Assembly (NCBI GenBank): GCA_035936835.1
Contig: DASYVT010000135.1
Span: forward strand, 1 to 64,000
Length of the DNA: 64,000 bases
Direction: 5' to 3'
Source: Candidatus Methylomirabilota bacterium
GTDB lineage: Bacteria > Methylomirabilota > Methylomirabilia > Rokubacteriales > CSP1-6
Under the pieces are notes generated by a model, which saw nothing but the letters and a program-made list of their open reading frames with translations, ran no database searches and was not told the origin of the DNA. Position numbers and translations under genes: made by a program. Below are positions 42,198 through 47,297 of this stretch, in pieces (the first letter of the stretch is position 1; each line of letters opens with the position of its first letter).

Positions 42198-42287
42198 GGC
42201 TCCGTCGGTGGCGCCGCGGCCCTCCAACCCCGCCCCCAAGATATGGGGTCCGATCGCCTTCTCGACACCGTATCGTGTATTTTCCCC

Positions 42288-42317
42288 TTGACACTCCTTG
42301 GGGCCTGCCCGTAGAGT
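42288..42317 (+). promoter_or_regulatory. Strong sigma70-type promoter for a 13-residue peptide gene
   Basis: A perfect TTGACA (42288-42293) and TAGAGT (42312-42317) are separated by 18 bp. This is the clearest standard promoter in the window, and it stands in front of a very short ORF. Confidence 0.75.
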
Positions 42318-42371
42318 CACGACAAGACCGACCTAACCGCGGGACGCGCGGGTGCGGGAGGGGGTGACACG

Positions 42372-42413
42372 ATGGCGAAAAAGAAGAAGGCAGCCAAGAA
42401 GAAGAAGAGGTAA
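42372..42413 (+). CDS. 13-residue lysine-rich peptide
   Basis: ATG 42372 opens MAKKKKAAKKKKR then TAA: 9 of 13 residues are basic. It lies 55 bp after the -10 of a strong promoter, has GGGAGGGGGTGACAC upstream (SD-like GGGAGG), and is followed by a terminator-like hairpin, so it forms a complete tiny transcription unit. Composition resembles the basic tails of histone-like or ribosomal proteins, so nucleic-acid binding is a reasonable guess. No family is claimed. Short length means chance cannot be excluded without expression data. Confidence 0.6.
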   Translation: MAKKKKAAKKKKR

Positions 42414-42431
42414 GGCGCCCGTTCTGGCGCT

Positions 42432-42462
42432 CGGCCCTGTCGGCCCCATCCCGGCAGGGCCG
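42432..42462 (+). terminator. Hairpin after the lysine-rich peptide gene
   Basis: An 8-bp stem CGGCCCTG / CAGGGCCG with a 15-nt loop starts 18 bp after the peptide's stop codon and ends 35 bp before the next gene. There is no T tract. Confidence 0.5.
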
Positions 42463-42497
42463 AACCATCTCCGGCGCCTCACGCGCACGACACTCCG

Positions 42498-45520: not shown

Positions 45521-46764
45521 CTCAGGCGCTCAGGGTAGAGCGGGAAGCGGTTCGTCAGCTCCTGGACCTCGCTGCGCACCGCGGCCTCCACGGAGCCGTT
45601 GCCGAGGTTGGTCAGGACGCGGTCGATAAGCATGGCGATCTGCGCCATTTCGGCCTCGGCCATGCCGCGCGTGGTGACGGCGGGCGTCCCGATGCGGACG
45701 CCGCTCGTGACCATGGGGCCCTTGGTGTCGAAGGGGATGCCATTCTTGTTGACCGTGATCCAGGCGCGGTCGAGCGCCTCCTGCGCGTCCTTGCCCGTGA
45801 CACCCTTCCCCGTGAGGTCCACCAGCAGGAGGTGGGTGTCGGTGCCACCGGAGACCAGCCGGTAGCCGCGCGCGAGCATCGCGTCCGCCAGCGCGCGCGC
45901 GTTTCTGACGATCTGCCCCTGATAGGCGCGCCACTCCGGCGTCTGGGCTTCGCGGAAGGCGACGGCCTTGGCCGCGATGACGTGCATGAGCGGCCCGCCC
46001 TGTATGCCGGGCAGAACGGAGCGGTCCAGATCTTTCGCGTACCGTTCAAGGCACATGACCATGCCGCCGCGCGGGCCCCGGAGCGTCTTGTGCGTGGTCG
46101 TGGTCACGAAGTCGGCGTAGGGCACTGGCGACGGGTGCAGCCCGGCTGCGACAAGTCCCGCCGGATGAGCGATGTCGGCCATCAGCGCAGCCCCCGCCTC
46201 GTCGGCAATCTCGCGGAAGGGCTTGAAGTCGATGGCGCGAGGGAAGGCCGAGCCGCCCGCGATGATGAGCTTCGGCCTGTGCTGCTTCGCCAGGTCCCGC
46301 ACCTGGTCCATGTCGATGCGCTCGGTGTCCTTCGTGACGCCGTAGGACACGATCGTGTAGAGCCGCCCCGAGAAGTTCATCGGGCTGCCGGCCGTGAGGT
46401 GTCCGCCGTGCGCCAGGTTGGGTCCGAGCACGGTGTCACCCGGCTTGAGGAGCGTGAAGTACACGGCCATGTTCGCCTGGGAGCCCGAGTGAGGCTGGAC
46501 GTTGACGTGCTCGGCGCCGAAGAGCTCCTTGCCGCGGCTGATCGCCAGCTCCTCCGCCACGTCCACGTACTCGCAGCCGCCGTAGTAGCGCTTGCCCGGG
46601 TACCCCTCAGCGTACTTGTTGGTCATCACCGACCCGACGGCCTCGAGGACGGCCTCGGAGACGAAGTTCTCTGACGCGATCAGCTCGAGGTTGCGCGACT
46701 GGCGCACGGTCTCGTCGCGGATCACCTTGGCGATGTCGGGATCGACCTGCTCGAGCCGGTTCAC
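45517..46764 (-). CDS. glyA: Serine hydroxymethyltransferase
   Basis: 415 residues from GTG 46764 (GTGA overlap with rpiB). Landmarks are [51 protein letters not shown] and the PLP-lysine motif [15 protein letters not shown]. It interconverts serine and glycine with tetrahydrofolate and so supplies one-carbon units, including to the PurN and PurH steps encoded in the same window. Confidence 0.97.
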
Positions 46765-47228
46765 GCCGCTCCCTCCCGGCCGCCGCGGCGACCTTCCATG
46801 TCGGCGATCTTGTCGACACGCCGGGCGTGGCGGCCGCCGGCGAAGGCCGTCTCCAGCCACACCCGGAGCATCTCCTGCCCCGTGTCCGAATCGATCATGC
46901 GCCCCGCGAGGGTCAGGACGTTGGCGTCGTTGTGCTCGCGGCTCATGCGCGCCGTGTAAGCATCCCCGCAGAGGGCGGCCCGCACTCCGGCGACCTTGTT
47001 GGCGGCGATGGCCATGCCGATCCCGGTGCCGCAGACGAGCACGCCGCGATCCACCTTGCCGACGGCGACGGCCTCGGCCACCTGCGCGGCGTAGTCGGGA
47101 TAGTCGACGGAATCGGGCGAGTGGGTGCCGAAGTCGAGGACCTGGTAACCGGCCTCCATGAGCCAGCCCTTGAGCGCTTCCTTGAGCTCCCAACCGGCGT
47201 GATCGGCCCCAAGGGCGACGGACAACAT
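46761..47228 (-). CDS. rpiB: Ribose-5-phosphate isomerase B
   Basis: 155 residues. The RpiB/LacAB fold begins [20 protein letters not shown]; the catalytic region is [26 protein letters not shown] (Cys base) and [15 protein letters not shown]. It interconverts ribose 5-phosphate and ribulose 5-phosphate, thereby feeding PRPP. The rpiB-glyA-nrdR order is a common operon. Confidence 0.96.
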
Positions 47229-47297
47229 TTCGGCCTCACGTTACGCTCTGTCGGGGTCGGGTGTCAAGACGCCCCAAGATGTGGGGCTTGGGAGCGC

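Follow-up and report, generated by a model that had tools for sequence, protein, structure and literature searches.

Lysine-rich micropeptide genes with strong Shine-Dalgarno sequences in Methylomirabilota: candidate free counterparts of histone H1-like tails

To our knowledge, basic tails have so far been encountered only as parts of larger proteins or in the form of ribosomal peptides of greater length. Among the histone H1-like tails, KPAA peptides bind DNA in vitro, and the 154-aa repeat region of AlgP forms a domain within a larger protein (PMC9239181). Of the tiny ribosomal proteins, bL37 (24 aa) came to light only through cryo-EM combined with small-ORF matching (PMC5876184). A third point of comparison is provided by toxin-antitoxin systems, for which domesticated HEPN-MNT pairs have been described (PMC3710099). 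Here we describe a 13-residue micro-ORF in a 64,000-nucleotide stretch of a Candidatus Methylomirabilota genome (the window; contig DASYVT010000135.1, positions 1 to 64,000), together with its relatives. The ORF is too small for annotation and lies under the length threshold that gene callers usually apply. The data comprise genome sequence only, and many of the genomes are incomplete drafts.

All elements of the unit lie on the forward strand. The -35 hexamer TTGACA (42288..42293) is adjoined on its 5' side by an upstream element, GTATTTTCCCC (42277..42287), and is separated by an 18-bp spacer from the -10 hexamer TAGAGT (42312..42317), which places the predicted start of transcription near 42324. 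An extended Shine-Dalgarno (SD) sequence, GGGAGGGGGTGA (42356..42367), complementary to the 16S 3' tail, precedes the micro-ORF MAKKKKAAKKKKR (42372..42413; ATG at 42372, stop TAA), which contains eight Lys codons and is followed by 3' hairpins; the encoded peptide lacks Pro and the KPAA motif. Directly 3' of the stop lies a short G+C inverted repeat (GCGCC..GGCGC; 42414..42430) of partial conservation, followed by a terminator-like hairpin, CGGCCCTGTCGG-7 nt-CCGGCAGGGCCG (42432..42462), and a conserved CCATCT (42465-42470). The hairpin has no U-run, the next bases being AACCATCT. The promoter hexamers, spacer, ORF and hairpin reported in a first-pass annotation were thus found base for base in the sequence. 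Only two TTGACA-N16-18-TANNNT sites occur in the 64 kb (0.06 expected by chance), and the site at 42288, which that annotation called the strongest textbook promoter in the window, is the closer to consensus. The second, with an 18-nt spacer (47238-47267, reverse strand), lies just upstream of an rpiB-like ORF (46761-47228, reverse strand). A generic sigma-70 scan of 20 kb returned the promoter of the unit as its sole match; given that about one site would be expected by chance under the looser criteria of that scan, the comparative evidence for the promoter carries more weight.

A search with 211 bases of DNA yielded matches in 48 of 60 relatives, either at the locus of the window gene (locus A) or at its paralogue. 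Alignments of locus A comprised 26 copies for the 3' part including the hairpin, and 21 for the 5' part including the promoter. Across the latter, CTTGACA is invariant (21/21), as is the TTTT of the upstream element, while the -10 hexamer is of the TAnnnT type in most relatives. GGnGGTGA is likewise invariant across aligned copies, and the peptides follow the pattern M(A)KKK(K)(A/T/S/G)..KKKK(K). The first-pass annotation had reasoned that loss of the ORF beneath a retained promoter would point to a non-coding RNA; in none of the 21 promoter-aligned relatives is the ORF missing. Flanking genes are less stable, with pyrE upstream and an EamA transporter downstream occurring together only in close relatives and different genes elsewhere. 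That promoter, ORF and hairpin are kept while the neighbours change argues that locus A is a gene of its own, and its layout is that of an independent, putatively monocistronic transcription unit. As the hairpin occurs once per genome and always at the locus A gene, we rejected the idea that it is a dispersed repeat or a terminator of a generic kind.

We examined coding potential across 141 distinct micro-ORFs of Methylomirabilota. These contain 1194 Lys codons (AAG 1089, AAA 105) against only two for Glu (GAA and GAG combined), such that A-to-G changes appear to be tolerated at the third codon position and hardly at the first. Pooled nearest-neighbour pairs gave a pN/pS of 0.16 (72 pairs, not independent), indels come in triplets, and start and stop are kept. 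Together, these findings support the micro-ORF as a real, selected protein-coding gene, as judged from sequence, and answer favourably the earlier question of whether Lys content is preserved through codon changes. The codon evidence led us to reject a non-coding RNA alone. A related possibility is that the ORF is incidental to a functional RNA, with the conserved purine tract and hairpin serving as an sRNA or ribosome-binding decoy. This proposal can draw on the near invariance of the locus A hairpin sequence over 26 genomes and on the perfect anti-SD complementarity of many family members, yet it does not account for selection on Lys at the codon level, triplet indels or retention of start and stop; moreover, no Rfam match at gathering score was obtained within the window, the fold z-score is just -1.4, and the 3' hairpins of Nitrospirota copies (see below) are quite different, several having U-tracts. 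We therefore regard a functional RNA as improbable. More doubtful still, to the point of being barely credible, is a lysine-sensing leader peptide (attenuator), a role brought to mind by eight Lys codons followed by hairpins. Genes after locus A vary, and those after the paralogous locus (rpmB or lpxC) are convergent; the absence of a conserved same-strand gene downstream contradicts attenuation.

Members of the family range from 10 to 30 aa, and the 141 ORFs together encode 1194 Lys, 430 Ala, 51 Arg, 2 Glu, no Asp and no Phe, Trp or Tyr. Hydrophobic residues are almost absent from this set, and on this ground we rejected a membrane toxin or amphipathic antimicrobial peptide. In genome G045, which we take to be Ca. 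Methylomirabilis oxyfera, the two members are MAAAKKPAAKKAAPKKAAPKAGKKTGRGC, which is H1/AlgP-like, and a K/A/T-rich 18-mer. The first Methylomirabilis micropeptide (L218, L223, L216) ends in Gly-(Arg/Lys)-Gly-Cys, with the terminal Cys conserved. Stop codon usage is also skewed, comprising 82 TAG, 59 TAA and no TGA, such that every micro-ORF stop is one read by release factor 1; TGA terminates 139 of the 218 flanking genes.

The initiation signals of these genes are very strong. With the 16S tail of its own genome (GGATCACCTCCTTTCT), the window SD pairs at -21.4 kcal/mol; the first-pass annotation correctly placed an SD here, but its SD-like GGGAGG understated the strength. Even when the most favourable start was taken for each of the 37 window genes, the best of these reached only -15.2 kcal/mol. 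Across the micropeptide family the median is -22.4 kcal/mol, versus -10.3 kcal/mol for the 218 flanking genes.

A strict sequence pattern matched 64 of 95 Methylomirabilota genomes, and a looser one matched 29 of 40 (all 31 strict-pattern misses plus others, from NC10 lineages); reversed controls gave no match for either. Combining both patterns with one locus A copy recovered by DNA search (genome G023, L008), at least one copy is present in about 85 of the 95 genomes. Two or three genes are often found per genome, which suggests that dose matters.

Additional copies reside at a paralogous locus (locus B), usually a tandem pair, which adjoins rpmB in Rokubacteriales. There the order is an AbiEi_2-like gene, two tandem ORFs, convergent rpmB, and recG beyond; the genome of the window itself carries such a pair on contig C123 (L031). 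On the 3' side of locus B, a hairpin (GGTGGGGGGTGGCGGCCTCCCACC, loop TGGCGG) varies hardly at all among 27 loci (L023-L065), a degree of conservation beyond the needs of a terminator. In NC10 genomes, the micropeptide ORFs of locus B lie 3' of a winged-helix/nucleotidyltransferase (NTase) gene and a HEPN gene. Winged-helix genes before locus B include AbiEi_2-like, wHTH-NTase and HARE-HTH types, and may regulate or assist the micropeptide; given that the preceding gene differs among lineages, the link could be chance, and locus A lies alone. An active toxin-antitoxin role for locus B appears unlikely, since the catalytic His of the R-X4-6-H RNase motif is absent from six of seven aligned HEPN sequences, being retained only in L026; the other six have D, S, Q, A or N there.

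Similar arrangements were identified in Nitrospirota, where about 70 of 198 genomes (by hand count) carry a Lys-rich ORF in frame and immediately 3' of GGTGA, although the control also matched in a minority of genomes. These ORFs are mostly MATKKAAAKKKKK-like with a TTG start. In nine loci, most of those sampled, the preceding gene is a homologue of the winged-helix/NTase gene found in NC10 (38-53% identity), accompanied by HEPN in five of the nine, and in another group a coiled-coil HARE-HTH gene occupies the same position; lpxC is convergent in most sampled loci. That the gene order is shared speaks for a common origin of the family in the two phyla, which it would then span by inheritance or transfer. 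Further look-alikes, in archaea, Omnitrophota, Pseudonocardia and Brocadiales, are sporadic and are treated here as leads rather than members, since low-complexity peptides defeat homology searches. In the class to which the Brocadiales genome belongs, the search matched about as often as its controls did, and only three or four genomes look genuine. Three Brocadiales-type genomes (L265, L274, L168) have a Lys-rich micro-ORF between an nrdG-like gene and smc. At a separate locus, L264, a pair of MKKKGGKKK ORFs stands in tandem, both having a perfect AAAGGAGGTGA SD, together with the beginning of a third unit of the repeat. Archaeal examples are stand-alone Lys-rich micro-ORFs 3' of SDs of the GGTGA type, located in MAGs of DPANN and other archaea (L097, L109, L111, L184, L190) and in tandem in L097; within the phylum to which L097 belongs, 3 of 57 genomes have such look-alikes.

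Judging solely by composition, length and expression signals, we infer that a nucleic-acid-binding or ribosome-associated role is the best reading, as the first-pass annotation proposed. More specifically, it seems about evenly balanced whether the window gene is a strongly translated monocistronic gene for an abundant, disordered, nucleic-acid-binding cytoplasmic polycation resembling a histone H1 tail. Its near-maximal SD would drive high synthesis of the 13-residue peptide, which would be disordered in the cytoplasm and could bind DNA or RNA by charge in the manner of a free H1 tail, and so serve as a minimal peptide that condenses the nucleoid or RNA. The same composition would, however, be predicted for a peptide directed at the ribosome, at polyphosphate or at some other anionic target. 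A broader proposal, that Methylomirabilota and Nitrospirota share unannotated, multicopy 'micro-histones', free H1-tail-like peptides of 10-30 residues with near-maximal SDs and winged-helix coupling that condense nucleoid or RNA, is offered more tentatively. The main rival, rather unlikely in our judgement, is a lineage-specific tiny ribosomal protein seated in an rRNA pocket, like actinobacterial bL37, with which the micropeptides agree in size class and charge. A very strong SD and the proximity of rpmB (L28) to locus B in Rokubacteriales would fit such a protein, but rpmB is convergent rather than co-transcribed and elsewhere gives way to lpxC or smc, and repetitive sequence, shifting length (10-30 aa) and tandem copies are unlike a shape-fitted subunit. 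Nor did the 23-29 aa members match Pfam, NCBIfam or PDB, in searches weakened by low complexity and with a minimum length above that of the 13-mer. We consider it distinctly less probable that the peptide serves polyphosphate or another polyanion, and not DNA or RNA, as a counter-ion or scaffold; H1-like AlgP associates with polyphosphate granules, where its Lys-rich tail is needed for spacing (PMC9239181), but no polyphosphate gene was noticed adjoining the micropeptide in the neighbourhoods examined.

A protein gene of 10-13 codons conserved across a phylum, under the usual gene-caller size cut, offers a signature (extended SD, Lys-rich ORF and hairpin) for finding more. It also makes testable the notion that, in NC10 methanotrophs and in Nitrospira that oxidise nitrite, free polycations form part of the nucleoid or the ribosome. 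Literature searches on the peptide strings, on the Methylomirabilis transcriptome and small RNA, and on Nitrospira micropeptides found no paper on the family.

Compared with known systems, the family resembles HEPN-MNT toxin-antitoxin loci in that wHTH-NTase and HEPN genes precede the micropeptide genes in NC10 and part of Nitrospirota, but the HEPN motif mostly lacks its His and the window gene stands alone. Like bL37, bS22 and bTHX, the micropeptides are short, basic, lineage-restricted and easily missed by gene callers; unlike these ribosomal proteins, they have no sequence-family or PDB match and are repetitive, variable in length and tandem. With the H1-like tails of AlgP, PhaF and chlamydial Hc2 they share a Lys/Ala-rich composition with hardly any acidic and no aromatic residues, and expected disorder. 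Methylomirabilis members carry KPAAKKAAPKK; the window peptide is without KPAA-type repeats. Whereas those tails are domains of larger proteins, here the entire gene encodes 10-30 aa as a stand-alone ORF with its own SD and stop, joined to no N-terminal domain, and we regard the micropeptide as a basic tail in minimal, free-standing form.
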